From positions 774,997 to 838,996 of the forward strand of contig VUYT01000004.1 of assembly GCA_008802785.1 (NCBI GenBank): a DNA stretch of 64,000 nt. Direction: 5' to 3'. Position 1 is the stretch's first letter. Each line of letters opens with the position of its first letter. Source of the DNA: Symmetrospora coprosmae (lineage: Eukaryota; Basidiomycota; Cystobasidiomycetes; Symmetrosporaceae). The position numbers and the translations under genes were made by a program. This document shows, one piece after another, positions 2,350 through 64,000 of the stretch. The notes under the pieces are model-generated. The model saw nothing but the letters and a program-made list of their open reading frames with translations, was not told the DNA's origin and searched no databases.

Positions 2350-3195
2350 CTTCCTACCTTACCATCACCGTGGTCTCCAGCACCATCGTTCGCAGTCAGA
2401 AGTAGACAGTAGCATCATCTCGTCGCGCATGTAGGTATGAATCATTGCATTGCAGTCAGCTATCCTGCGCGCTCAGCCCTCAAAGCTCGCGCACCAGGGC
2501 ATGGCCACGCTTCACGCTCGCTGGCGACTCACGTCTCGTAGCTTTGCACACGGAGGAGACGGGATACCCTGCGAGATGCACCAAAGATCGATGGAGGCAT
2601 GCGTGCGTGCGGGTGTCCATCGGGGCATCTCCGATGTATCGGAAGCGGCTCCGACGAGACACCCCCTTTGCTCTCTCCCGAGTGAACCCCTGGCGTCCGA
2701 GTCGGCTTCGAAGTCAGCGCGATCTGCCGACCCTGACCAAGATGAGAATGCAGCAGCAGATTCCGATGGTCCAACACCAGAACGAGCGCGATGGTTGCGG
2801 ACCTGCGCGCGCGAGGGTAAGCGAGAACGCCGGGACGGGTCTGGCCTTTCCCTTGACCCGGTCCGGTACGGCGGGAAGGCGGTGAACAGGCAGACACATT
2901 GGCGGTTGCTGCTCTGCTCTGCTCGCACGCCTGATTCTTCTTCGTCGACAGCTTCCTCGCTTCGCTTCCAAGCTTCTCTTGACGCCCATTGCGTCTTCTT
3001 GTCCGCACTTCTCGGCAGGCTTTTCTTGTCCGCACTTCTCGGCAGGCTTTGCATACACGCCCGTTTCTGCGTCAATCGCTGCTTCATCGCCTCACTCTCA
3101 TTGCTGGAGTTCTTGCACTGCATCAATCGCTTACGCTTGCCGCGTTGAGGTAATCCCCAGCGACTTAGCCTCAACACCATCGGTCTGGACCAGCC
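2350..3195. other. Intergenic stretch with a 27-bp tandem repeat
   Basis: Lies between the uridine kinase stop and the protein kinase start, so it should hold the kinase promoter and leader. Open frames on both strands overlap one another and resemble nothing. A 27-bp unit (TTCTTGTCCGCACTTCTCGG...) is repeated twice back to back at 2996-3049. No RNA gene was seen. Confidence 0.5.
2996..3049. repeat. 27-bp direct tandem repeat, two copies
   Basis: Two adjacent, apparently identical copies starting at 2996 and 3023. They lie about 150 bp upstream of the protein kinase start, probably in its leader or promoter. Confidence 0.85.
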
Positions 3196-5439: not shown

Positions 5440-6513
5440 TGGCATGTTGCACCATGGCTGGCTTTGTTGGCCATCTCTCTCTCTCTCTCTCCCACTATCG
5501 CTCAAGCCTGCTCTGTGTAGCAGGCCGGTCCCCTCGCCTTTGCTGATCCCCTATCTGTTCATAGTCGCCTCAGTATGTTGCCTGTTTGGATAGATCAGCA
5601 GAATCGCATCATGTCGGCTCATTGAAATGCAAATGTCGATAGTCCTCCCATCTCAGTCTTGTCCAGTTCTCTCAAGGGAGCTCGATTTCTGCGAAAAGTA
5701 CGCGCGTCATTTCCGTGCCCCTGAACGCGTCGAGGCGGTTCAGCCCGGGGCGCGCGTAGAGTGGGCAGTGGTGGAGTATCAGGCAGAAGACGGGCACTGC
5801 AGAGGAGAGTACAGCGATACAACACATGCACATGAGATGTATGCGACACGGTGTGATCTAGACACAGGCACGACCCTCTTTGCGCGACTCTCTCTGTTGC
5901 TGCTTGCTGAGATGTGACCCCGGTCGATCGCCTGCGCCTTGCCCCTGGCGAGCGTGTTGTTGCGGGCGCAGCGGGCGCAGAGGGTGGGCGACTGCTGCCT
6001 CCTTCTCCCTTCTCCTCTCCCATCCTCATCCTCGTCCACACGCACGTACGCAGCAGTACAGACTCCCTTCCTCTCCTCTATCTACATCTACGTACCCACA
6101 CTCCCTCCCTGTCTGTTCTGTCTGTGTTCTCTTTCCCTCTTCCCGCCGGCCATTCCTCCAGTCCCAGCCAGCCCCGACCACCACCGAGAGAATCAAAACA
6201 ACAACCGTCCCCAGCCCCAGCTACAACCGCAATAGCAGCAGCAGCAGCAGCAGCGACAACCAGAGTAGAGCGACAACAAACAGTGCTCGCACGTCATCAT
6301 ACGCGCTGTCCCCTCACCCGCGGAACCAGCCAGCTAGTTCCCCCGGCCCCAGCCGCCCATCCGCGTCTGCCCCTCTTGCTGCTCCCTCTGTTTGAATGGC
6401 GGTGAGTCCGCGGCCTTCCCCAGCTCACCTGCATCTGCACCGACTCGGCACCTGCCTTGCTGCCTGCCTCACATCAGTACTGATCAATCCCAATTCTATC
6501 TCTCCTCCCACCC
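5440..6513. other. Intergenic region and probable long leader of the cyclin gene
   Basis: Contains a (CT)n run near 5474-5492 and a pyrimidine-rich tract at 5990-6180, then an (AGC)n tract near 6233-6254. Overlapping open frames here are compositional. The ATG at 6396 is followed at once by GTGAGT, so a short first coding exon (ATGGCG) spliced to a downstream exon is an alternative start for the cyclin. Confidence 0.45.
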
Positions 6514-8887
6514 ATGCCTGTCCCGCTGCCGTCCGACGCGCACATCACCCTCAACCACCCCTACGTCCCGGCATTGCCACTGCCCTTGATGCCTCTGCCC
6601 CATCCGCCTGCTGCTGCTGTCGGCCATCCAATACGCATCCGCATACCTGCGCGATACAACTCGGCCAAACCCGAACCTGCCGACGGTCTACCTCCGCCGC
6701 TCCCGACCTCCGTGGCCGACCTTCCGCCCCACAACAATAACAACAACGCCACTAACGCGTCTCGTCGCCGGTACCGCAACCGCAATGCTCCACGCAATAC
6801 CAACAACTCGCAGAGCCGACGCGTAAACACCAGAGCAGCTGCCTCGACCGTCACGGTCCTCGGTAGTGACGAAAACAAGATCAACCCGGGCATTGGAAAA
6901 GCAGGCCTGAGAGCAACTGGAGCAGCAGCAGCGTCAAAGGGCAAGGTGAGTGGACGACAGCAGTGGTGTCTCCATGAAAGCCTTTACCTGATTTGATTGC
7001 TCCTCGTGCAGGCATCCACCACGGGCGCCGCTTCGAACGCAACGGCCGCAGGCGCAAAGAGGAGGACTGCCCTCGCCGACTCCTCCAACAAGGTTGCTCA
7101 GCCTTTCAAGGGCACCAAGGGCAAGCTCGGTGTAGTCGTCGAAAAGGCCGGTGCCACTGGCAAGGCCGCCTCTACCGGTGTCGCAGCCGGCACGGCTCGC
7201 AGCCTGCGCTCCTCGACGAGCAAGAGCACTGCCGGCGCCAAGGCCGAAGACGATGACGGAGACGCCGTCATGGAGACCACCGAGGACCGACCCATCAAGT
7301 CGCTCCGCAACTCTGGCTCGCGGACCGCAAGCACGGCCCTAGCTGGCAAATCCACCAACATCCCCAAGGCAGCCACGACGGGGCAGCCAACCAAGAATGC
7401 CGGGTTGCGCAAGTCCACGTCCGCATCCGCACCAGTCTCCAAGAAGGAGGAGCCGGCCGTCAAGCGGTCCACCAAGAATGCCGGGCTCCGCCTCAAGCGA
7501 GAGATTCAGGAGGTCGACGTATCGCGCGTCGAGGAGGAGGCGGAAGTCGACGAGAACCATGCCGTCGCGCTGCACGAGGATGTCGAGCCGCCTGCTGGAC
7601 AGCGGAGGCGGAGCAAGCGCTTGCGCCCATCTGACCCGCTCGAGAACGCCGAGGCATCCACGTCTGCGCTCAAGGCGGAGGAGGACGCTGTCGCAGCCGC
7701 CAACCGATCCGTCGCAGAGACCGTCTCGCGCATCATTGAGAGCGACGTCGGGATTGATGTCGACCAGGACGAGGAGGTTGACGAGAATGCCAAAGACTAC
7801 GGATGGGAGGATCTCGACATTGGAGACGAGGAGGACCCGCTCATGGTGACGGAGTATGTCAGGGAGATCCACGACTATATGAAGGAGCTGGAGGTGGGTT
7901 TCAGTTACTGCTGTGTCACTCATCAGCACAGTCTGACGAGCCTGTCCCCCTGCAGATCACCACGCTCGCCGACCCGCACTACATGTCGCGCCAGAGCGAA
8001 GTGACGTGGAAGATGCGCAGCATTCTGGTCGACTGGCTCATCGAGGTGCACGGCAAGTTCCGCCTGCTGCCCGAGACCATCTTCCTCGCCGTCAACATCG
8101 TCGATCGCCTGCTGTCGATTCGGACCGTCTCCCTGACGAAGTTCCAGCTGGTCGGGATTGTCTCGCTCTTTGTCGCGAGCAAGTACGAAGAGGTCATCTG
8201 CCCGAGCGTCAGCTCATTCCTCTACATGACGGACGGCGGCTACACGGACGACGAGATGCTCAGCGCCGAGCGCTACATCCTCAAGCAGATCGACTTCAAC
8301 CTTTCTTACCCGAATCCCATCAATTTCCTCCGCCGCATCTCCAAAGCAGACGGATACGACATCCAGACGAGGACGGTAGCAAAGTACTTCCTCGAGATGA
8401 GCTGCGTCGACCGCAAGTTCATTTCGGTCACTCCGAGTCTGATCGCGGCTGCAGGCATGTGGCTTGCGCGAAAGATTCTGGATCGAGGAGATTGGGTGAG
8501 TGCATTCTGCTTGTCAAATGCGTGTTGGTCATTGGCTGATGGATGATCTGCTCGCTTCTACAGCACGCCAACCTTGTGCACTACTCAACGTACTCGCAGC
8601 TCGAGCTGCTGCCCACAGCACAGCTCATGCTTGACTATGTCCTTCGACGCTCGCAGACGCCCAGCGATCCCATCGAGCACCCGCACTTCACCAAGAAGTA
8701 CTCGGCAAAGAAGTTCTACCGAGCAGCAGAGATTGTCCGCGAGTGGGCAGAGGCACGATACCTCGTTCGACGCGGAGCAGAGAAGGCGACCGGATCAGTC
8801 AGCCTGTTTCCGGAGCTCGACAACGCTGGCAGACTCGAGGAGTGGGAGGAGGAGGGCCGCATTGCGCCCACTGCCGACTACGTCTAG
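6514..8887 (+). CDS. B-type (mitotic) cyclin
   Basis: Regulatory subunit of Cdk1 that drives G2/M. Exons 6514-6945, 7012-7893, 7956-8495 and 8564-8887 join in frame (about 725 aa). The N-terminal region is low complexity, with a destruction-box-like RTALADSSN near residue 168, a lysine-rich linker and an acidic stretch. Cyclin_N follows: MRSILVDWLIEVHGKF, LPETIFLAVNIVDRLLS, SKYEEVICPSV and FLYMTDGGYTDDEM, then Cyclin_C with YFLEMSCVDR and HYSTYSQLELLPTAQLML. The MRxILVDWLIEVH signature and D-box fit the B type. The start is uncertain: 6514 is the first ATG in the open frame, but ATGGCG|GTGAGT at 6396 may be the true first exon. Confidence 0.9.
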
Positions 8888-34307: not shown

Positions 34308-34812
34308 GGCACCCGAGTGCGCTTTGACGGCGGCTGGATGCGGTTGCTCGGCGGGGTGAGAGAGTGTCAGGATGCTGCCACCACTGCCATTCTACACCGT
34401 AGCCCAGTCAGTGTGGGATCAGTCAGAACAGAGACAAGGATGCGCCAGTGAGAGTGATGCATGTTTGGGGTCTGCCCGTCATAGGAGGCCTGGCTGCCTG
34501 CCTGGCTGCCTGGACGGGCCGAAACCGCCGACGGGCCCGTGGAGGAGAAGCGAGGATTGTCAGGGCGGCTGGGATCGCAATCAACAGCGGCAGGGAACTC
34601 GGAGCAGCTTGATATGTGCTAGATGTGCACTCTGTGATTGCGATGTGCAATCCATGTTTGTAAGTTGACGTAGGCTTGTCGTTGCCGTCAGTGACCCGAA
34701 AAGCAAGGGTGATCCTGCAAAAGCCGCCGGAGCTTCTCTGACGGGTTTCCGCCACTGGGAGGGACCCCGCTTGCCCTCTGTCTGACTGCGACCGACACTG
34801 CCCCCACCTTGG
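34308..34812. other. Divergent promoter region, arrestin / nucleotidyltransferase
   Basis: No coding signal stands out. It contains two near-repeats of CTGGCTGCCTG around 34487-34513. Confidence 0.45.
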
Positions 34813-37800
34813 ATGGCAGCAACCTCACTCTTGCAGCATCTCATTCGTCTACCTCGACATCGCACCTTTCCGCATCTTGCAGCAACTGGCCGCAGCTGCA
34901 TCAGCATCGTCCCCTCCTTGCCCCTGCTCGCGTCTCCTCGCAGCAGCAGCAGCAGCAGCAGCAGCAGCACCGCGATCGCCAGTACCCGCTCGGCGTCATC
35001 GACAAGGTCAATAGCAGCTTCCAGTCACAGCAGCAGCATCCGCGCACTCGCTGCAATGCTCAGCACATCCGCTTCGTCGGGCGCATCGGCTTCCCCCTTT
35101 CCCAGGAAGGCCAGAGCTGGAGGAACCGCCCATCAAGCGTCAACCTCCGGAGGAGCCGCCGGATCGCGCTACGAGTGCTTCGTATGCCACCTCGCCTTCA
35201 CCAACAAGAACCTCCTGCAGCAGCACATCAAGGGTAGTCCGTTCTGCAGTGGGCATAGCAACGGCAAGGCCGGCAGTAGCAGCGGCGGCAGTAGCGCCCA
35301 CGCCGAACGCAGCAGGCCCGCTGCAGGAGCCGTCCTACCCGGCTTTGTCCCTGCTAGCGCATTGACAAAGCAGCACAGTCTGCTCAAGGAGGCAGCGTTG
35401 GCTGCTCCTGCGTCGGCGTCGAGCGCGAATGGGGCACCCACTGTCGATGCACCTCGGATACACGTCAATGGCGAGAGCACATCCTCGCCGGCCTCACCGG
35501 GCAAAGCAGCCAAGGGGAAAGCAAAAGCCATCCCTATCGGAGACTCGCAACCAAGCGTCACAGCAGGCCTCGGCCTCCACCAGCCGCAGCATCCGTCCTC
35601 CGTCAACTCCGCGAGCTCGATGGCCCGCAGCTCATCGATCGAAAGCCGCTCCAGCACAGGTACCGCATCCGCACCTGCGTACGCTGCGAGCAACGGCAGC
35701 GGCAAGGCCCCGAAGGTGAAGAAGCCGAAATGGACGCAGGCAATGAAGGATGAGCGCGATGAGCTGAAGCGGCAGGCGGAAGCGGGTGGGCAGGGACTCG
35801 CGACAACGAAGCAGAAGGGCGTCGCTCGGCCCTGTTTCAAGCCGGCGGCGACAGCTGTCGGAGGAGGAGCGAGTCGGCCGAGACATGGCCTTGCCATCGA
35901 TTCTGGCAACGTATCGCGCCTTTTCCCTGGCAGCGTCCCCAGCAATGCGCTAGACCCAGCAGGAAGGGAAGGCGCTACGAGCCCGGCAGAGTCGATCGCA
36001 TCGTCCACGGACGAGCTTGTGCAGGCACACTCGCCGCCGACAGTCGCAGACACGCCGAAGAGCCAGAGCAAAGGCCAGCAGAAGGGGGAATCTGCATCCG
36101 CATCTACACCAGCATCAACAGCGGGAGCCGTCGCACCCTCCGCCTCGTCTTTCCCTTCCTCGCCATTCTCCTCGTCGCCTTTCCAGGCGCACATCGATCC
36201 CTTCAGCTTTTTGGCCTCCAGACAGGCTCTTGCTGCTGCACAGCTGAGGCAGGGACCAGCCAGCGAGGCCAGCACGTCCTCGACCATCTCGACACAAAAG
36301 CCTATACCCGCAGCTGCCCCGATCCCTGTACCTGCAGCCACCGCCGCCGCCGCAGCTCAGCCAGCACCACCTCCGTCCCTGCCCATTCCACCGCTCGTGC
36401 ATCGCGACTCCGGCAAGCGGATACCGCAGTCTCCGCTCCTATGGAGCAGCGGTCCTTCTGCGGCCCCTCTGTCCGCGCCGACGCTCGGCTCGCCCGCGAT
36501 ACCCACATCACCCAGCGGGCGCTTCGAGGATGTGCAGTACTTCGACGGCGAGGACATGTCCACACATCAGCGCGGGTCGCGCGGTGCGCACGATGATAGC
36601 GACGGCTACGATCACGACGCGGGCGCAGCGGCGGCCATCCAGCGTGCGCGGTACGCGACGGACAGAGATGCGGTCGTCGCTGCGCTCGCGGAGAAGCTCA
36701 ACAAGGACGTCAGCATCGTCTCTGGCGAGGCGCGGAAAGCGCGGAAAGCGGAGCTGGAGAAAAGGCGCGAGGAGCTGCTTGCGCGCGCAAAAAGCCAGGG
36801 CGCTGACGCCGAGCAGCAGGAGAAGTACCTCGAGGGACAGCGCACAGAGGCGGAGGCGCGACTGCAGGAGAGGGAGGCGGCCGAAGCACGGAGAAGGGAG
36901 CTGCAGAGGCGCAAGGACGAGCAGGATAATGAGGAGGCCTTGCCCGGACCACATGGGTACGATAAGGCGTCAGACAAGCAGGAGGAGTCCTCCGACGAGC
37001 ACGATGAGACCATGCGAGAGAGCCAAGCGACCATCAAGGATGGAGATGGCGTCGTCCGTCAAGATATGGCACAGACACACGGTGCCAGCAACTCGACTGC
37101 TCCGCAGAAACCGCAGCAGAATCCGCAGCAGAACACCAGAGTCGAGTATGACCCGCCAGAACGGAAGGTGCAACGGGCCTTCCCGACGGGCGAAATCGAC
37201 GCGTCAACGGTACAGGCCATTGCGCCCGCGGTACTCAAGTCGACGCTCGCAGACGAGCCTACGACTAGCACAACGAATACAGCCGAAGAAGAAGACGATG
37301 GCACAGGCTCAGACGCCGGCTCCGACGCCAGTGTGACGAGCCGTCTCGTCCGGACAGTCGTGCGCGATTTCGACATGCGCAGCTGGGACGATCTCGCAGA
37401 CACTGCTCCGTCGGTACAGGCAACGCACAAGAGGATACAGCTCGAGCGGACGATCCTCGCGCTCGAGAAGCGGCACCGCCCTTCTCCGACAACGCTCATG
37501 CGGCGCCGAGAGATGGTCAATGCCGTTCGGAAGCGGCTGAATGGTCTCCTCCCCGAGTGGCGCCCAGACTTCCAGTACACCATTTTGCCGTTCGGCAGTA
37601 CGGCGTACGGCCTCGACACGGACTCGTCGGATCTGGATCTGTGCATCGTCGACCCAAAGCGTCTCGACGGGTTCCGGAATGTTTGGGATTTGTACGAGAT
37701 GTCGCCGCAGGGCAACACCGGCGAGGAGCCGCTCAGCACAACGGACGATGATGCTGCGGCTGGGAACACAACGTTTAACGCCACCACGGACGTGGGCAGG

Positions 37801-39943
37801 CGACCACCGCACCACAAGGCCCGGAATGGCAAGTGGGATGCACCAGATGTGAAGACGGAGCTAGGGCTGGATCCCATCTACGATGTCAGAAGGATTGCCG
37901 GAGTACTCAGACGGATGAACTACCGCGAGGTTATACCTATCCCATCCGCAGGGGTCCCCATTGTCAAATTCAAGAGCGCCGATGGCATCAAAGCAGACAT
38001 GGTGAGCGGGACCGACACAAGATGCACAGAGCAAACGCTGATTCGCTTGACCCATGCAGAACGCCAATGAGCAGCTTGGCGTGCGCAACTCTGCCCTGCT
38101 GAAAGCCTACGTCCACTTCTCGCCCGTGGTACGGCCATTTCTCATCTTCCTGAAGGCGTGGGCCAAGCAGCGCGGCCTGAACGACCCATCCGGCGCACAC
38201 GGAGCCATGTCGCTCTCTTCTTACTCGCTCATCCTCATGGCAATCGGGTACCTGCAGCACGCGGGCGTCGTGCCCAATCTGCAGGATCTGCGGCTGATCG
38301 CGCAGAGCGGGATGGAGCGCGAGGCGTTCTGGACCAAGGTGCCCAACAAGAACGCCATCAAGCCGGGGATGAGAGGGAAGGGCCGGTACCTCGGCGACTA
38401 CAAGGCCATGGTCGTCGAGACCACGTTTGTCAGGATGCTGCCGGCTAGCGCAGACTGGAAGCCTAGCCATGCCGCTGGATCGCAGGCGAATGGCGCAAGC
38501 AAGGCTGTCAATCCCGCTACTATGCCTCGGCATGTTCCGACAGGCTGGGACAGCGATGACGCTCAGTCGATCGCCCAGTCAAACGGAACCGGGACAAGCA
38601 AGAGCACGATAGGCAACACGACGGTGACCGACTTGGCGCAAGGCTTCTTCCACTACTATCTCGGCTTTCCGCTCGACAGCAAAGCGGTCTCGATCTGGGC
38701 TGGGCGGCCTCTGGACCGCTCAATGGGATACCTGCCCCTCGCCGCAGATGCAGACGGGATCCCGTTGCCGACGTTGCCCAAGATCACGCGGGAGGAGCGA
38801 GAGGAGCTCTATGAGGAGGCGGCGGAGGAGTCTGACGAGGAGATCTACGACGAGCGGAATCCCACGTCCGCTACGCCAAAGCAGGAATTGGAGACACGGC
38901 AGGATGCCTCGTCGCCGCAAAACACAAATGGCATCGAGTCCAGCACAGAGACGGACGAAGAGCGCCTGTCGCGCGCCACATTGGCAAAGTACGACGCTCT
39001 TCTTCGGGCACATGGAGTGCAAGATCTCGCCCCTTCTTTCGAAGACGCCAATCGAAAGGCTGTCGATGCTCGAGCGACGAGCGCAGTATCGCCCGGCACC
39101 ACCCCAGATCCTACGCCGACAACTGCGCGCTTCCCTGCGCACGTCCGCTCCAGCGAGAATGGACGGCCCGATTCCATCTCAACTGGCACTTCGAGAAGCA
39201 AGGCGCGGGCGTCGGGCGCACACACCGGCCTCGAGCTCCACCATGCAGACGAGACGACCGGCCTGTTCCCCTTTCCAGAGCAGGAGCGTCCCGAGGATTT
39301 TGTCGAGCCGCCGACGTGGACGCAAAAGCTCGTCGTGCAGGACCCGTTCATCCACACGCGCAATACGTGCTTAAACATCGTGCCCCGCGTCGTCGATCGC
39401 ATCATGGCTGTAAGTGGCCTGCCTTTTCCTGCATTCCGTTCTCTATGGATTCGAGCTGACGCGGTCGATGCGCGGCTCTAGGAAATGCAACGCGCATACG
39501 ACCTGCTTCAGGAATCGGCCCCGCTCGACAAGGTCTGTCTGAGCGTCAAGAAGGATTCCGAATTCCGGGCCGAGTACTACTCGCCGGGGACGCCCATGTC
39601 GCGTGCTGCGCGGCGCATCGCGCAAGAAGCCAAGAAGGAGGAGAGACTGCGGCGGGAGCAGGAGCGACGGAACCGGAAGCGCGAGGCGAACGATCAGGCG
39701 CGGCGGGAGAGGCGGGCCGATCGTCGAGAGCCTGGTGGGCAGGCGGGGGAGAGCGGCGCGCATAGTCAGAGCCAAGGGCAGTCGCACACGCAGGGTCGCA
39801 GGAGCCCGTCGCCGCGGCCGCACAACCCAGAGAACGGGAGCCCGGCGAATGCAAATGGGCGGGCGGCGCGAAGAGGCAGAGGCTTTTCGCGCTGGAAGGA
39901 GCAGAAGCACAAGAAGAGGGAGGAGCGGCAGGGAGCGCCGTAG
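34813..39943 (+). CDS. Non-canonical poly(A)/poly(U) polymerase (Cid1/Trf4 superfamily)
   Basis: Template-independent RNA nucleotidyltransferase, probably tagging RNAs with A or U tails. Exons 34813-38001, 38060-39409 and 39482-39943 give 1666 aa. Near residue 118 is a C2H2-like zinc-finger segment (CFVCHLAFTNKNLLQQHIKG), followed by about 700 low-complexity residues and a charged coiled coil (residues 630-720). The catalytic domain (about 840-1210) has FGSTAYGLDTDSSDLDLCIVD with both catalytic aspartates, GIPIVKFK-like VPIVKFKSADGIKADM, and the PAP-associated core LLKAYVHFSPVVRPFLIFLKAWAKQRGLND, SLSSYSLILMAIGYLQ. The tail is strongly basic (KRRE-rich), a possible RNA-binding tail. The first 80 residues cover an (AGC)n tract, so the true start may be the Met near residue 82. 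Confidence 0.87.
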
Positions 39944-47284: not shown

Positions 47285-48400
47285 ATGCCCAGTAAGCCTC
47301 AAATGGTGCGCGCGAGGCGATTATGCTGCTGGAGTCGCTTACGCTGGTCTTCGCACCGTCTGCGCTGCTCCTCCCCAGCTCAAGAAACGAACACGCCTTT
47401 CCCGCTCATCGACGCCGGTGAGCGAGGGCGCGCGTACATAAAGCAGACAAGCAGAATGGCGCTGATCATGTATTCCTCCGCCTGCTCCGTCTTGCGTTTA
47501 CGTTGCTTGCAGACCCGCATGCGGGCCGGGTCGTGCGCTACATGCGCCCAGCGGACTATGCCGTCTGGGGCGCAGCGACAGCGGCTTTCCCGGCGCTGCT
47601 CTACGGCTACGGTGGGCAGCCATACCTGGATGCCATGTCAGTCCTGTGCTGCTGATGCTTGCTGCCCTCCTGCTTTCTCGCCGCCGTGCGCTTCCCTCTG
47701 CTCAGAGATGGCCGACCCGTCAAGACTGTCGAAGAGAGGCCTGACCCCTGCACTCAAGTACTGCACCCTTCTCGGCTTTGCAGGCGGCTTCCTGCTAGCA
47801 TATCAGAGGAGCTCATGTGAGTGCCTCCGCTGTGCCTCTCGCTCGCGTGGGACCGGGGCTTGCAGGCTGATGGGGTGTCTTCATGTGCAGTCCGCTTTTG
47901 GGGATGGACCGAGAACGTGAGTCGCAGCAACGCCAAGTGGACATGGCATAGCGCCTCTGACACATCCAGTGCGGTCCCTACAGGCACGAGAGGAGAAGCG
48001 GGACATGGAGGAGCTCTCTGCCATTGCGGCGCAAGGGAAGCCCGTGTATGGCGAGACGGACCTGCCAGACTTCATCCAGGGAGTCGCGCACCGCAACTCG
48101 CAGTGGTCGCAGCTCAAATTCTCTGCTCTTCCTTGGTGAGTACATCGAGCGGGACATGCTGCCGAAGATGACTCAAGCAGTCATCTGGCCGAGCTGACCC
48201 TCCCATCCCGCGACTCTTTTCTCTGGTCATCGGCAATCCAGGTTCAACTTTGTTCGGTAAGCCAGGCGCGGTTTGCAGGGGTCAAGTATTGTCTTGCGCA
48301 CAAGCTGATGCCATGTTTCGCGATTCCATGCAGCCACCCGCATCACGGTGTCGACACGACAAAGTACTACTTGAAGGCGGAGGAGGACAAGGCGGAGTGA
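47285..48400 (+). CDS. Mitochondrial complex I 21-kDa subunit (NUXM type)
   Basis: Accessory inner-membrane subunit of fungal NADH:ubiquinone oxidoreductase. Eight exons: 47285-47291, 47379-47417, 47513-47611, 47706-47816, 47891-47916, 47984-48135, 48242-48256, 48334-48400, giving 171 aa. The rebuilt protein reads MPTQETNTPFPLIDADPH, RVVRYMRPADYAVWGAA, LLGFAGGFLLAYQRSSFRFWGW, YGETDLPDFIQGVAHRNSQWS and WFNFVRHPHHGVDTTKYY, matching the fungal family from end to end. The first coding exon is only 7 nt (ATGCCCA, donor GTAAGC) and the seventh is 15 nt. Reading past the first donor gives a wrong frame, which supports the short exon. Confidence 0.92.
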
Positions 48401-48691: not shown

Positions 48692-51600
48692 ATGGCAAAG
48701 TACACGTTGGAGTACTCGAAGAGCGCACGGGCAAAGTGTCGGAGGTGGGTCGCGCTGGCCAGAGGGGCGGGGCGGGCGTGCTGCCTGGTCGCTGGTCGCA
48801 AATTCACGCGACGGACCGTATCGTCCTGAAACAGCTGACTGACGCGCGGAGGCTGCCGTCTGTCCATCTATCTGCTCGCACCTTCTTGTTGCTCCCTCTG
48901 CATCTGCGACCCCCGTCCGACTGCGTAGATGCCAGGACACCATCCCAGAGGGCGCGCTCCGCACTGGCGAAACCACCGACGTGTTTGGCCACGAGTCGGT
49001 CGGCTACAGGCACTGGGGATGCAGCACCAAGGAAATCCTCCGTACCATCAATCTGCAGACTCCGGGCTTCCACGAGCTGAGGTGCGACTATGTTGCATCC
49101 GCTCGAGGTCCGCGCCACCCACGTCATGCTGAATTGTCTTCCCCCCTTCGACGCGTTTCCTCCCCGTTCCCCTCCTTCCCGTTACCTTCCTTCCTTTCCT
49201 TTCCTTCCTTCCTTCCTCATTACCCTCCCTCCGTCTCTTCCCCTCCTTCCTTCCTTCTCTCTTTCTCTCTTATCAACTCTCCTCACACAGAGCGGAGGAT
49301 CAGCGACGCGTCATTATGGCAATGAACAAGCGCAAGATCCCTGAAGAGGACCTCACGCCGTGCCTACGACCTGCTGGAGCGCTTCCCACCGGACTCGCCA
49401 AATCTTCCTCCGTCATCGCGCAAAAGACCGAAGTCCCTTCTGCCACGAACAGCTCGATGGCACCCGCCGAGGAGGACAAGAAAGGAGCGGTCGCCCCGTC
49501 CGCTTTCAACTTCCCCTGGTCGTCCAGGCCCCAAGGCTCTGACACGCCTAGCTGGTCAAGACCCGATGAGGATGCCGGTGTGAAAGCAGCCATCCCGTCA
49601 TCATCCAGCTCTTCCGTCCCTCGAACGTCCGCCCCGCTTTGGTCTCGACCCGATGAGGATGAAGGTGTCAAGCGTGCGATCGCCTCTACCGCCTCTACCT
49701 CCTCTTCCTCCTCGTCCAACTCCACAGCGGGCGCGCCAGTCTGGTCCCAGCCTGTTGAGGACGAGGACGTCAAGCGCGCTATCGCAGCATTCTCGTCCAG
49801 CAAGCCCCATGTTCCCGACACGAGTAACTCTTCGCATCCTGACGAAGACGAAGACATCAAGATGGCCATTGCACTTTCCCTCCAGGATGCGCAGCGAGCA
49901 CAGCCCTCTGCCTCCTCTTCCTCGGCTTTTGGTGGCTCGAGCTGGGCGCCCGCACGACCCAAGATAGGAAGCTCCGCACCAAACTCCCTCACGGGCTCTT
50001 CTGCTATGCACAACACGCTGTACGGCCTTCCCTCCCTCTCGGCACCCAACAGCTCGAAGCTCGGCCCCGCCTTTGCACCTTATGCCGGCATGCCTGGAGG
50101 TTGGAGGGGCGATGACACCGACAACGAGGATGTCAAGCCGTCCAGCTCCTCCGCGGTCGCCAGCTCGTCCAAGCTGCACCATTCCACACCCCCCACTTCT
50201 GCTTCTGGCCCCAGCTCGCGCAAGAACAGCAACTATATCGACCTCACGAGCTCGCCTCTTCCGGACGTCAAATCGGCCTTCAGAGGTGTCAAGCGAGAGG
50301 CTGCCATGCTCATCGACAGCGACGACGACGAAGATTTGAAAGACATCAAGCCAAATGTGCCGAACGCGGCCATCGAGCTCGAGGATGACGTCTTCTACGT
50401 GCGAACCTATGCGGACGTCGTCGGGATCACGCATTACAACGGGAAATGCGCACCTTATGAAGTCGTCACATTGGTGGGTGTTTGCACCACCTGAAGCGGC
50501 TACTATCCCACCCGTTCGCTCCGCTGACATACCGGATGCATCGGTAGCTGCGAGACCCCACAAACATTTTCGACCCTAAAGCGATCAGAGTCATGAACAG
50601 CTCCGGTATACAGATCGGCAGTCTCTCTCGCGGTGTCTCTGCGAACCTCGGTGAGTGGCAAGCGGACCCTTCCTGGCAGTCGCTCGGCAGCTAATCGCGC
50701 CTCTCTGCGCCTAGCCGGCCTGATGGACGGCGGTCTTATCACGCCCACCGCAAAGATGATCACCGGCAACAACGTCACACGCACATTCAAGCTGCGAATG
50801 TCAATCGACATCTACGGACCGCCTTCGTCGAGGGCCGCACTCGCCCCTTCTCTGGCCTGGGCCGGACCGCTCTCGACAACCGGACTATCTCCTGAGGCCG
50901 CCCACGCGAAGGCCATGGCTGACGCCGCCGCTGCCATGGCTCCGACCGCCAGCACGTCCGCAACGCCCGATTTTGCTTTCCCTCCAGGCCTGAGGAATTT
51001 CGACGGATCTGGCTTTGCCTTGCCGGGCTATGAGCAACTAGAGACCGAGGAGGAGAAGGCCGCACAAGAAGTTATGGCGGCTCTGCAGCAGCTCAATTCG
51101 GCCGAGCACAAGGCCGACGACTTCCTCGAGGCGCTCACCAAGGCTGTCGATGTCCTCAAGCTTCCCATGCACCCTGATCCGCCTAGCAAAGCCAAAGGGC
51201 AGCTGCTGAATGATCTGCTGGTGAGCTGCGCTCTCCTTACGGCTGCTTGCGAAGCGCTACTGACGGAGCAACCGCCGCCTTTACCTTAGCCCCACCAATC
51301 GCAAGGCCTTCTGTGGATGCAGCAGCACGAGAACCCGGTCCTGCCAGAGGGCGAAGAGCATGTACAGCTGTGGAGGCGCCGCGGCGACAAGATTCCACAC
51401 TGGTTCAACGTTGCCACCAAGATCACGCGAGCTCTCAAGCACGAGCCGGTGTTGGGACGCGGCGGGATCCTCGGTGCGTATTGCCAGGCTTTAGAAACCT
51501 CGTCACACAGAGGCTGATTCATCGTTTCTTACCGGAAGCCGACTGCATGGTGAGCGTGTCCGTCCTGCATGGCTGCCCAAATACGAATCAGTACTGATGC

Positions 51601-54200
51601 TAGATATGTTTTGTCAGGGCTTGGGAAAGACCATCAGTATCCTTGCACTGATTCTCGCGACCAAGCAGGAGCCGGCACCGGGCTTTTGCGGAGCTACCCT
51701 CATTGGTGAGCACCGACTACAGGACCCCCGAGACGGAGCGAACGGCAACTGACGCCTACTGCACAGTCTGCCCTCTGAGCGTGCTGTCCAATTGGGAGAG
51801 CCAGATCGACGAACATGCTGCACCCGGGCAGCTCAAGTACATCGTTTTTTACGGGCACGGACGAGAGGTATCGCAGGCCAAGCTCGAAAAGGCCGATGTC
51901 GTCATCACAACATACCAGGTCGTGACCAGCGAGCAGAGCACCCGCCCTTCAAAGGCCAAGAAGGCCAAGACTGGACAGAGCACTGGCAGACTGATTGACA
52001 CCAAGTGGAAGCGAATCGTTCTCGATGAAGGGCACACGATCAGAAATGCAGCTACGGGCATGGCGAGGTGGGCAGCATTCCAGAATGTCTTGACTGAGAA
52101 ACCGAGACTGACTCGCTTGCATGATCGACGTCGGCAGGGCCTGCACTGCTCTCGAAGCGCACCGACGATGGGTCGTCTCTGGCACTCCTATCGTCAACGG
52201 TCCCAAGGATCTCGGCTCTCTCCTGTCCTTCCTGAGGGTCTGCAGGCCTCTCGACGATCCCACTGAATTCAAGAACCGGGTCGGTACGTCGGATGATTGC
52301 TTCTCCGTGATGAGCCGCGCTGAGCGTCTTCTTCTCGCGATCTGCAGTCCGTGCGCTGAAGCCTGGCAAGCGAGGCAGCTTCCTGCTGCAGGCCATCATG
52401 TCACAGTCATGCCTCAGGCGAACCAAGGAGATGGAAGATGAGGATGGCAAGAGGCTCGTGCCTCTCCCGCCTGTCATTCACTACGACACTGTAGTGGAAC
52501 TCACCCCGGAGGATCGCCGGATCTACGACACCGCAATGACCATCTCGCGAGACCGCATCGTTGAGGCCCTGAGGGAAGGTGACGGAGCGCCTGTGAGTGC
52601 AATTGGTATCAGCTGCTTGTGCACAGTATGTGCTGACGATGTGTATGCCCTTGTGTTTCAGCCTCCGTCGCACGTACTCGCGATGCTCACCCGTCTTCGC
52701 CAGCTCTCGCTCTTTACGGGCTTGGTACCCTCAAATTACCTGCGCACGCTCCAGAAGGAGCAGAACCTGGCCGTCGCTATCTCGAGTGTATCCGACGAGG
52801 ACCGAGTCGACCTCCTATGGAAGCTCAAAGCCGCCGTAGACGATAACGAGGAGTGCCCGGTGAGGATATGTGATCGATGTACAGGCGCTGTGACAGCTTG
52901 GCTCACGCATGGTCGAAACTCGCAGGTCTGCTTCGAGACTCTCAACCAGCCGCGCATCACCATCTGCGGCCACGTCTACTGCCTCCCTTGCATCCAGGAG
53001 GTCATGGGCAGCGAGATCAAGAAATGTGAGTCTTCTCTCAGACAGTAGCGGGACCCAACAGTCCGAATGCAAAATCTGAATCAAATGCGCTTGATCTCAG
53101 GCCCGATGGACCGGACCGATCTACTATCAGCAGACCACTTGCTGGAACTGCCTGCGGTTATGCCACCCAAAAGGGAAGACCCTGCCAAGAAAGAGGAGAC
53201 GGAGGAGGAGGACACTGCCGCAGATCTCCCTGTCATCGAAACCGGCAATGGCCTCAAGTCAAGCGCCAAGATTGATGAGTTGTGCGTCCCTGCTGCGTCT
53301 TCATGTTAGTCGTTCAGGATTCTAGCGCTGACCTCCTCGGGCATTCATGTGGGCTAGGCTCCGCTACCTCAAGCTCTTCCCAAAGACTCAGAAATCGCTC
53401 GTCTTCAGTCAATTCACCGGGTTCCTTGATGCCATCGAGCCCCATCTCAAGGAGGCCGGGATCAGGTTTGTCCGCTTCGATGGGACCATGAACCAGACTG
53501 CACGAGCCGAGGTTCTCCAGGTGTTCCAGCGACCTCTCGCTCCCAAGTCCGGTCCGTCTCAGGATGTGAAGGACGTCAAAGAGGATGTCGACACTTCAGC
53601 CACCGAGGACAGCGATGCCGAATACGCGCCGCCATTCAGGAAGGCATCGGTCAAGGGCAAGGGCAGGGCGAGCGCATTGTCAAAGGGCGAGGGCAAGGCA
53701 CGAGGTGGCGATGACGACTACGATCCGAATGGCCCGACCGTCATGCTCATCTCGCTCAAGGCCGGCGCAGTCGGTTTGAACCTTACCGCAGGTGAGCAGA
53801 TGCTGTTATGTGAAGGTATGAAGCATACACGAACGCGTCCATTTTGCACCCGCAGCGTCCGCTGTCTTCCTGATGGATCCCTGGTGGGCTGCCGCTATCG
53901 AGTCGCAGGCCATCGACCGCGTCAATCGCATTGTGGGTGTCCAAGCTGTCGATTTCGGGGAATCGCGCTGACCATCTCCCACCTTGGCGCGAACAGGGTC
54001 AGACGGCCAAAGAGGTGCGCGTCTTTCAAGTCATTGCAAAGAATACCATCGAGGAGAAGGTGCTGGAGATTCAGGCACGCAAGAACGCCCTGGTCAAGTC
54101 CGCATTCGCTGGCATCAAGAACAAGCAGACAGCCCGAGAGAGGAAGGAAGCCCGATACGCCGAGCTGAGGGAGCTCTTTGGCATCCCGGAGAACAACTAG
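48692..54200 (+). CDS. PARP-type zinc finger + UIM + HIRAN + SNF2/RING translocase (HLTF/Rad5-like)
   Basis: Predicted nuclear DNA translocase/E3 ligase of replication-fork repair. Seventeen exons in phase, 1388 aa: 48692-48744, 48929-49081, 49291-50473, 50548-50650, 50715-51220, 51290-51473, 51539-51549, 51618-51705, 51767-52067, 52138-52283, 52348-52592, 52662-52859, 52926-53025, 53101-53281, 53358-53791, 53856-53932, 53997-54200. PARP finger: residues 1-77 (YTLEYSKSARAKCRRC, YRHWGC, FHELRAEDQRRV). UIM-like repeats: about 155-273, best DEDEDIKMAIALSLQDAQ. SIM-like NYIDLTSS. HIRAN: about 435-530 (VGITHYNGKCAPYEVV, IFDPKAIRV). SNF2 ATPase: LADCMGLGKT, LDEGH, WVVSGTP. RING: ECPVC, CGHVYCLPC, then CPMD. 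Helicase C: SLVFSQFTGFLD, LKAGAVGLNLTA, DRVNRIGQTAKE. Exon joins are by hand; the finger's end lies in the same exon as the UIMs, supporting fusion. Confidence 0.87.
49130..49290 (+). promoter_or_regulatory. Long CT-rich tract inside intron 2 of the translocase gene
   Basis: Intron 49082-49290 is 209 nt, two to four times longer than most others in the window, and is dominated by C/T runs (CCTTCCTTTCC...). It could be an extended polypyrimidine tract. Fungal promoters often show such CT-rich blocks just before transcription starts, and the next ATG (49316, MAMNKRK) is in frame, so an internal promoter making a finger-less form is conceivable. Confidence 0.35.
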
Positions 54201-59800: not shown

Positions 59801-62403
59801 TGGCATCCTCGGAGAGTGATGGCATGAGTTTCGTTGCCTCGCCGACGCCGGCAAACGGTCTCCGACACGCAATCAACCGTCACTCGATGGATGTCGATGT
59901 TGGCGACTCCACGCGTCCGTCCCTCGAGATTGACGTCGGCTCCTCCGAAGGCGGTCGCCCTTCCATCGACAGCGATGCTCCCGGAACACGTCCCTCGATG
60001 AACAGCGAAGGCTCCCGTCCGTCATTCGACTCTGTCAGGCCACTATCGCCTGCCCAGCGGCTCGTCCAGCAGAAGCAAAACCAGCTCGTCAAGCAGAGCA
60101 CCGCCTCCTCCATGCTGTCCTTGTCTTCTGTCAACTCTTCACCCTGTCCGCGTCCGCCTAGGAGGAAGCTCCTCATGCTAACGGGAGGCCGTCTACCCAG
60201 AGCTCCAGTCGCTGCGCCGATATTTAAGGCGGCCGCCCCAGCCGTTCAAGTACCGTCGCCTGCTCCCGGTCGGGTCAGGAAACTCAAGGACTCTTGGGAG
60301 GCCAAGCTGTCTCCCAAGAAGGAGGACACGGTTCGATGTGAGTGCATCAGAGCTGCTGCTTGTACGACTGTCCGCTCAAGCCAGCTCCCCTCAGCTACTG
60401 GTTCATCACCCCGCTACGTTCGGCCTCTGCCGCCTACTCTCGGGCAGAAGTCAGAAGTTCAGCGGCCTCGCTTGCTTACGAACTTATCTCTGAACGGCTC
60501 GTATAGTGAGCTCCATCTGCTGCCTGTACCCCATAAGCTCTACTGATCTTGTCCTTCTCTGCCTGTAGTCCCGCCCGACACGCCTCCTCCTTCCTCGCCG
60601 TCCGCTTCCGAGCAAAGCTTTAGCTCGGACAACCGGTCATCTATGGAGGGCGAGCGGCGCTCCGTTCAGTCACGCCTCTCCTATTTTGGGCGCAGGAAGG
60701 GCGGACATCGCAGGCAGACGTCTGCACTCTCGCGTTCCTCGATCCTCGCCGAGCCAATCCAGGAGGAGCCGGCCGTGACGATCACAATTGACGAGCGTTA
60801 TGCTCTCCCGCCTGTCTCCGACGACACTACAGCGACCTATCCGCACGCTGTGCCCAAGCCCTCGCCCATGACGTCGCCAGAGGCACCTAAGCCGCTCGCC
60901 ATCAGCAAACGTCGGGAGCCAAAGCCTGTCGCCACGATGCTAAACAAATGCTCCAGCGACAGGCTGTCTGTTGGCATGGATGCCTTCCAGATGGCCAGGC
61001 AAAGTCGGGTTGACCCTTGCCGCATCGAGGACGTGGCGCTCGAGCCTCAGCCAAGGCATCCCGCCCCTATCGTCGCGATTGCAGAGGAGGATCAGGACTG
61101 GGAGGAAATCTCGAACCAGTATAAGATCAAATGGGCTCGCTTCTGCCAGGAGGCCACATCGGAATTGCAGAAGAGGTGAGGGCGCCTCGAAGGTCTCGGA
61201 CTGCAAGCGAGTATGCTGACGCCATTCTGCTGTTGAACGTAGTCGTGCTCTCTGGCCCGATACAGAGGCATCGTTGGAGGTCCTGGATTGTGAGTCACCT
61301 TGACCTAGTATTGCGACCGCTCGTCAGCTGACAATTGCACTCTCGTTGCTATATAGCACCAGCCTCCTCCGTGTCTGGCATGTCTATGCACTCGGACATC
61401 TGGACTCCAGGCACACCCCTCCTGACCTCGCCATATGGAAGCGCAATAGTCGAGCTCATCCTCGACTCGCAAAGCAAGTATCGATCGGAGGCTGCTCATC
61501 CAGACAGCCCGGACAACAGCTGCGACTCTCTCGATGTTCCCAGCACTCCGGAACTCTCGCCCGATCTCGCTCGTGAGACATACATTGTCAAGCGGTCATC
61601 CGATATTACGCCTCCTTCGCCGACACCACAGCCGCGCGCTCCCTCCGCGAGGCCAGCATACCAGCCACGGCCGCTCATGCTCGTCGAGAAGCACCTCTCG
61701 GTCTCTGAGATCCCTCTCTCCGCCATCAGAGCTTCGCTGGCGCCGATTGCTCGCGCTCCTTCCCCAGCGGCAGCGCCACTTGCTGCCGCTCCGCTGGCCA
61801 TCGTCACGAACACTGTCGCTGCCGCCGCTGCTCCGCCTGTCGCGAAGTCCACCAAGGGCTGGAAGCCCCGAGTCGCCGGCGCGCCGACTGCTCAGCCGCA
61901 TCTCCAGCCGTCTGTCAAGTCGCTCACGCCGGGCAAGCGCGTTCGAGCGGCAGCGAACAAGCGCACCATCGCGGTCTACACCGACGACGCTACTTCGTCG
62001 CTTGCGAACGCGATCACTGCTCCGGCATCCATCCCGGCAGGCCGAGGGCGCGCTCAGGACGGCAAGACAAATTCGTTCCTCGGCGCCCGAAAGCTCAGCA
62101 CGCGCCGGCGCGACGCTTTCACAGCCGCTCGCAGAAAGCTTGAGGGTGTCGGTCAGCCAGACGAGCAGACTGACCGGAGCTCAGGCACGAGTAGCGGGAC
62201 TGAGGAGTGTGAGAACGGCCTGCTGGAAGCCAGAGGGAGCGCTGTCGAGTGAGTAGCTCTTATAGTTGGCGGTTGAAGACGAGCGGTCACTGAGAATATC
62301 TTCCGTCTCCGACAGCACCGCACAAACCGCTACGAGCAGGCCTCGACCCCGGCCTTCGCAGCGACGGACCACCTCTGGGATAGCCCGCCCGATGCGTTGC
62401 TAG
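56818..62403 (+). CDS. Giant low-complexity protein with RPSxD repeats
   Basis: Not recognised. Nine exons (56818-58264, 58326-58772, 58841-58886, 58954-59563, 59632-60337, 60569-61175, 61243-61289, 61357-62248, 62316-62403) join in phase, 1629 aa. Composition is Ser/Pro/Ala/Arg-rich and mostly disordered. Visible features: basic KSKIRRQRSKK, (APA)n from a 9-nt repeat near 58045-58095, GYFPP/SSGYFPA repeats, and a cluster of RPSxD units (ERPSLD, ERPSFD, RRPSID, SRPSFD) in exons 4-5. The most folded-looking part is DWEEISNQYKIKWARFCQEATSELQKR at the end of exon 6. Many SP/TP and RxxS sites suggest heavy phosphorylation. The final exon is chosen for phase and could instead be skipped, ending at 62252. 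Confidence 0.65.
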
Positions 62404-62472
62404 GCCACACGACGGCGGTTCGTCAAGCTTCTACGTTGCTAGGCCACACGACGGCGGTTCGTCAAGCTTCCA
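62395..62472. repeat. 39-bp direct tandem repeat across a stop codon
   Basis: CGTTGCTAGGCCACACGACG... occurs twice, starting at 62395 and 62434. The first copy contains the TAG that ends the giant protein in my model, so the duplication also duplicates the stop context. Confidence 0.85.

Positions 62473-62936: not shown

Positions 62937-64000
<1,064 letters not shown>

Follow-up and report, generated by a model that had tools for sequence, protein, structure and literature searches.

Can one enzyme carry both a zinc finger of the PARP1 type and the motor of a fork remodeller? The question is raised by a gene on the forward strand of a 64,000-nucleotide stretch of the genome of the basidiomycete Symmetrospora coprosmae (assembly GCA_008802785.1, contig VUYT01000004.1, positions 774,997 to 838,996), called the window here, in which all coordinates are counted. 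The initial annotation of this gene had proposed a single enzyme that senses nicks, reads ubiquitin or SUMO and remodels forks. A PARP-type finger and an HLTF/Rad5-type translocase were indeed found in one reading frame, while the sensing and reading functions would be those predicted from the domains. At the sequence level, the domains, their order and their common frame are observed, and so is the finger's C-terminal edge in the exon that also holds the linker and the first part of HIRAN. We consider it fairly probable that the gene encodes an HLTF-type enzyme of the Rad5 family whose N-terminal finger, similar to finger 1 of PARP1, steers a fork remodeller to interrupted strands. A shorter form lacking the finger and starting at M78 may also be made.

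Domain organization of the predicted protein

The gene model consists of 17 exons and 16 GT-AG introns, which keep one frame of 4167 nucleotides (nt) from the ATG at 48692 to the terminal TAG at 54198-54200 and encode 1388 residues. Its splice sites were picked by eye under homology guidance and the exons were then joined by script. The 17 exons in one frame, the motifs and the coordinates given in the initial annotation proved right in the joined model and in the Pfam searches. The gene and its domains outside the finger and the linker are as follows:

48692-54200, plus strand: whole gene, zf-PARP, UIM-like repeats, HIRAN, SNF2, RING and Helicase_C in this order, 1388 residues
50405-50815, plus strand: HIRAN, residues 441-531, spread over exons 3-5
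51293-52706, plus strand: SNF2 ATPase, residues 668-1006, with Walker A DCMGLGKT at microexon 7 and a DEGH box
52851-53111, plus strand: RING finger, residues 1055-1094, embedded in the helicase
53728-53999, plus strand: best stretch of Helicase_C, residues 1275-1322

A Pfam profile search of the whole protein returned 17 families at E ≤ 1, and all five domains predicted at the outset exceeded their curated cut-offs. The zf-PARP match (residues 7-77, ending at 49315) had an E value of 2.2e-15 and 57.6 bits against a cut-off of 39.3. E values for the others were 2.4e-11 for HIRAN (residues 441-531), 2.6e-56 for SNF2-rel_dom (668-1006), 3.5e-8 for the RING (zf-C3HC4_2, 1055-1093) and 1.4e-13 for the best stretch of Helicase_C (1275-1322). 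HIRAN thus lies N-terminal to SNF2, and the RING lies between the helicase halves (SNF2 to 1006, Helicase_C from 1275), both of which are traits of the Rad5/HLTF family. No PARP catalytic domain was found among the 17 Pfam families, so that the protein should not make ADP-ribose. NCBIfam gave no match for the finger or HIRAN, and for the RING a weak rad18 match far below its cut-off.

The finger is completed by the exon that begins HIRAN

Whether the finger belongs to the HLTF-type gene depends on the join across intron 2, for which these features matter:

48692-48744, plus strand: exon 1, start codon (AACCATGG) and first finger cysteine, C16
48745-48928, plus strand: intron 1, 184 nt, GTGGGT...TAG
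48929-49081, plus strand: exon 2, ligands C19, H46 and C49, R29 and F37, reaching FHEL plus two bases of the following codon
49082-49290, plus strand: intron 2, 209 nt, weak donor GTGCGA, with a CT-rich tract that is a candidate internal promoter
49291-50473, plus strand: exon 3, completion of the finger (RAEDQRRV), ATGs at 49316 and 49322, UIM-like repeats, SIM-like IDLT and start of HIRAN

Residues 1-69, encoded by exons 1 and 2, scored 53.5 Pfam bits and aligned up to position 61 of the 87-position profile. With residues 1-89 the score rose to 63.5 bits and the alignment covered positions 1-85, which is nearly the full profile; without exon 3, the finger alignment falls 26 profile positions short. 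Against the PARP1 finger, we then scored as a possible acceptor every AG between a point about 45 nt past the donor and the last base of exon 3. The acceptor at 49290 ranked first of 74 sites (gain 22, followed by 16, 15 and 15), and in a looser control that dropped the AG requirement a gain of at least 22 occurred at 4 of 5075 positions, among them the real one. By Pfam score, the real join reached 63.9 bits, compared to 53.5 for intron retention and 53.0 for a finger with no tail; of the eight wrong acceptors with a gain of 9 or more, seven (7 of the 73 others in all) gave 54.4-58.6 bits. The real join therefore beats the best wrong one by 5.3 bits, a margin that is clear, not overwhelming. 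Pfam and the acceptor scan agree in supporting the earlier statement that the C-terminal edge of the finger is completed by the exon carrying the UIM-like repeats and the start of HIRAN.

Exon 3 is open without a stop, in one frame, through the repeats into HIRAN. As a consequence, every mRNA in which this join extends the finger through FHELRAEDQRRV will also code for the beginning of HLTF. Since by this model an mRNA for the whole finger enters the HLTF frame, we take the fusion of the PARP-type finger to HLTF as real at the coding level, and the exon shared in one frame is the strongest case for it.

Could gene prediction have wrongly joined a short finger gene to a neighbouring HLTF gene? 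Introns 1 and 2 (184 and 209 nt) exceed introns 3-16 (61-76 nt) in length, and intron 2 has weak splice sites, with a donor of 5.2 bits (second lowest of 16) and an acceptor of 1.7 bits (third lowest of 16). An artefact of this kind is nonetheless very improbable, as it has to face both the 26 profile positions missing without exon 3 and an acceptor that is the best of 74 and enters an HLTF frame free of stops to the end of the protein.

Besides these weak sites, other points speak against the fusion as the gene's product. The best wrong join gained 5.6 Pfam bits over the finger with no tail, half the gain of the real join. Moreover, the CT-rich tract of intron 2 may serve as an internal promoter driving a form that lacks the finger and starts at M78, which is considered below.

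A CT-rich tract within intron 2

The tract at 49152-49271 (93% pyrimidine) is the most pyrimidine-rich 120 nt of the 64-kb window, where the mean is 51% and the standard deviation 8%; with both strands counted, values of 75% or more are found at just three further places. In fungi, core promoters rich in CT are common. We therefore weighed a second reading, according to which the main mRNA starts in the tract and yields an HLTF without the finger, from M78 or M80, exons 1 and 2 being present in some transcripts only. One of the three other places, at 63488-63623, abuts the start codon (ATG 63487, minus strand) of a histone gene (Pfam Histone; H3 as read from the sequence). Another, at 5989-6125 on the plus strand, lies upstream of reading frames that belong to a gene carrying a cyclin domain (7782-8543). 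Within exon 3, in-frame ATGs occur at 49316 (M78) and 49322 (M80), the former with A at -3 and G at +4, the same context as the ATG at 48692. The weak splice sites of intron 2 fit as well. If intron 2 is retained, the frame stays open to a stop at 49323-49325, which would give a 149-residue finger-only protein without the DQ edge.

Nevertheless, such an arrangement leaves unexplained why exon 3 opens in frame with the conserved C-terminal residues of the finger. The tract is a degenerate (TTCC)n microsatellite and might be nothing else. Moreover, the third CT-rich place (36815-36938, minus strand) is antisense to a long coding frame, indicating that here a CT-rich stretch need not be a promoter. 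Two promoters with two products are thus possible, if doubtful; the idea is compatible with the fusion reading and would be either a serious rival to it or the source of a second product.

The finger resembles finger 1 of PARP1

The finger has CxxC...HxxC ligands and a complete C-terminal FxELRxxDQ edge, as expected of zf-PARP. Among solved structures it is nearest to finger 1 of PARP1 (best chain 2.7e-12; 26 of 73 aligned residues identical), the match to ligase III being much weaker (0.063). Its ligands C16, C19, H46 and C49 align with C21, C24, H53 and C56 of PARP1. R13, R29 and F37 correspond to R18, R34 and F44 of PARP1, all of which are thus kept, whereas V48 is replaced by Ser and W79 by Ala. 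We take R34 of PARP1 to contribute to DNA contact and W79 to be an interdomain contact. According to PMC4678113, Arg18 of PARP1 enters the minor groove, Phe44 stacks on an exposed base and Val48 makes contacts at the break, and PARP1 uses both of its fingers together on a strand break.

Compared to PARP1 finger 1, the protein thus shares the CCHC ligands and part of the DNA-contact residues; it differs from PARP1 and ligase III in having one finger, no PADR1, WGR, PARP or ligase domain, and Ser and Ala in place of V48 and W79. Binding of strand breaks by the finger is likely, judging from the residues kept. For the nick sensing proposed in the initial annotation, the retention of R18, R34 and F44 is in favour and the changes at V48 and W79 are not, and the function would be one predicted from this pattern.

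HIRAN, motor and RING compared with HLTF and Rad5

The HIRAN query matched eight sequences in the PDB at E ≤ 1, five of them HLTF and three unrelated, and Rad5 HIRAN was absent from these eight. To the HIRAN of human HLTF, 37 of 109 aligned residues were identical; for comparison, a value of 12% between the HIRANs of HLTF and K. lactis Rad5 is reported in PMC7804152. N91, D94 and Y73 of the HLTF pocket are kept (Y73 and D94 presumably being pocket residues), while Y93 is changed to Phe, Y72 to His and N90 to Thr. In HLTF, Y72 and Y93 stack on bases and a double mutation of N90 and N91 abolishes HIRAN function (PMC4666394).

The segment from residue 429 to 1388 had K. lactis Rad5 (6l8n) as its best PDB match (6.3e-66), and the DEGH box is common to both this protein and Rad5 of K. 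lactis and S. cerevisiae. Walker A carries Cys730 before MGLGKT, contributed by the 11-nt microexon, and so reads DCMGLGKT against DEMGLGKT in K. lactis Rad5. In the RING, the position of the eighth ligand is Asp1094 (CPMD, 53109-53111) instead of Cys; Asp is capable of binding zinc.

With human HLTF (SMARCA3), the protein shares a HIRAN ahead of a SNF2 motor with an embedded RING. As described in PMC4666394, human HLTF has HIRAN, SWI/SNF and RING domains, with about 50 residues before HIRAN. Here, about 440 residues, the PARP-type finger and the long low-complexity linker included, precede HIRAN, the last RING ligand is Asp and a Cys stands before the Walker A core. According to PMC7804152, the first 30 residues of S. 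cerevisiae Rad5 bind Rev1, and HIRAN binds PCNA in Rad5, not in HLTF. Rad5 has no finger at that end. Given that the HIRAN of HLTF is not a PCNA binder, recruitment of PCNA by the enzyme studied here may need another source, for example a UIM that would bind mono-ubiquitylated PCNA.

A linker with UIM-like repeats

Between the finger and HIRAN lies a further feature:

49565-49891, plus strand: four UIM-like repeats, starting near residues 161, 190, 225 and 253, of which only the last (49841-49891) comes near the Pfam cut-off

The repeat has the form acidic-VKxAI, present in four copies, and at least one copy was found in 2 of 20,000 shuffles of residues 78-440; the pattern used for the shuffles was slightly narrower than the one used to list the repeats, and all four copies satisfy the narrower one. 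Pfam recognized one copy, at residues 253-269, with 19.1 bits against a cut-off of 21 (E 0.0011). Only this last repeat would thus be a credible UIM, and the other three appear degenerate. The proposed reading of ubiquitin accordingly keeps one near-threshold motif in its favour, which is below the cut-off and stands beside degenerate copies. As for SUMO, a single IDLT at residue 385 was found, and a second pattern for the SUMO-interacting motif (SIM) had no match. Both reading functions are thus weaker than the initial annotation stated and are put forward here as predictions.

A model for the fusion enzyme and points against it

Together, these domains suggest the following course of events. 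The finger would bind nicks, gaps or junctions of single- and double-stranded DNA, and HIRAN would engage a free 3' single-stranded end. The UIM could hold ubiquitylated PCNA or chromatin, while fork reversal and the lengthening of ubiquitin chains on PCNA would fall to the motor and the RING. In this way, the finger would steer the fork remodeller to post-replicative gaps, nicked templates and unligated Okazaki fragments.

Several features of the protein weigh against this model. V48 of PARP1 has become Ser, and the protein would have to act with a single finger where PARP1 places a pair on a break. The HIRAN pocket is only partly kept, and Asp stands where the RING should have its eighth ligand. 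Moreover, the authors who described Hpz1, a finger protein of S. pombe that modulates G1-S timing, argue against a major repair role for it (PMC3435320). The finger might then have lost the recognition of DNA breaks and, as a structural or protein-binding element, keep the enzyme attached to a partner, which would suit a lone finger without V48 and W79. We regard this as unlikely, because the finger keeps all of its zinc ligands, the counterparts of R18, R34 and F44 and a complete FxELRxxDQ edge, and we retain the steering of the remodeller by a DNA-binding finger as our preferred explanation.

Precedents among fungal PARP-type fingers

Among the matches listed in literature searches aimed at the fusion, none described a PARP-type finger joined to HIRAN, Rad5 or HLTF, which agrees with the initial annotation, whose author knew of no described enzyme with this domain order. 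PMC4245714 gave no match for SNF2, and the one hit for HIRAN in PMC3435320 is an author's name, Hirano. The nearest precedents come from fungi. In several of them, Rad3/ATR carries a PARP-type finger fused to its C terminus, and the stand-alone form, Hpz1 of S. pombe, matters for hydroxyurea resistance, ultraviolet resistance in G1 and G1-S timing (PMC3435320). The likeness to Hpz1 and to the fungal Rad3(ATR)-Hpz proteins, as portrayed there, is that of a fungal PARP-type finger fused to a replication-stress enzyme. In Rad3-Hpz, the finger is C-terminal on a PI3K-like kinase; here it is N-terminal on a fork remodeller, and the protein has neither the stand-alone finger with an acidic tail nor the position C-terminal to Rad3 that mark the Hpz1 type. 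The class of event is thus known, a fungal PARP-type finger on a replication-stress enzyme; the HLTF partner and the N-terminal orientation were not found among the matches listed. The same architecture may sit unremarked in protein databases.

Scans with single proteins of IMG/VR and of the bacterial and archaeal genomes of GTDB yielded no fusion; these collections are non-fungal and such scans find close relatives only, so that their silence is uninformative on conservation. In IMG/VR, 1 of 10 pattern matches was confirmed for the finger (18 residues matched, in a phage-like protein) and 2 of 12 for the SNF2 core (28-29% identity), with 0 of 63 for the RING part and 0 of 2 for HIRAN. In GTDB, 0 of 22 were confirmed for the finger. 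One IMG/VR contig (L001) encodes, at 2510-2830, a 106-residue protein in which a C-x2-C...H-x2-C stretch is similar to part of a PARP finger. It lies about 2.6 kb from a gene for an ATP-dependent DNA ligase (5448-6350), and Pfam found no zf-PARP in it, only a weak LIM.

Exon structure and surroundings of the gene

Introns 3-16, that is 14 of the 16, measure 61-76 nt, and CTGAC branch-like motifs are present in 7 of 16 introns; short introns and such motifs would fit a basidiomycete. Exon 7 is a microexon of 11 nt (51539-51549), and exon 15 contains an acidic insertion (about residues 1195-1270), within which we considered that an intron may have been missed. By a codon-bias score trained on exons 8-17, the model frame was favoured in exon 2 (+21.6 versus -31.8 and -29.2) and exon 3 (+12.0 versus -199.4 and -190.8), while exon 1 (1.7 versus -16.5 and 4.4) and exon 7 (0.2 versus 1.1 and -2.4) are too short to decide.

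Upstream of the fusion and outside it lies one neighbour:

47921-48400, plus strand: 3' part of the gene for the 21 kDa subunit of NADH-ubiquinone oxidoreductase, with its domain at 47921-48139

From the TGA of this gene (48398-48400, an end read from the sequence) to the ATG at 48692 there are 291 nt. Elsewhere in the window, 34786-39478 holds long frames, in which a nucleotidyltransferase palm domain (MTPAP-like) and weak matches to C2H2 fingers were found, and a frame next to the MTPAP-like ones has a weak PAP_assoc match. A 39-bp unit is tandemly duplicated without mismatch at 62395-62470, and an exact 27-bp duplication occurs at 2996-3050.

Implications for break sensing and fork remodelling

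In animals, strand-break sensing (PARP1) and fork remodelling (HLTF) reside in separate proteins, and their coordination is a topic of current interest. A bolder idea is that one polypeptide couples strand-break sensing to fork reversal and PCNA ubiquitylation, that a CT-rich promoter in intron 2 switches between a long form that senses breaks and a short form that is a conventional HLTF, and that sensing is built in and not signalled by a PARP; taken as a whole, we judge this quite improbable. A natural fusion of this kind would speak for nick or gap sensing and HLTF-type remodelling taking place at the same site, and it would provide one protein in which a point mutation in the finger can cut the coupling. 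Taken with the Rad3-Hpz fusions, it would suggest more than one occasion on which fungi joined PARP-type fingers to replication-stress enzymes.

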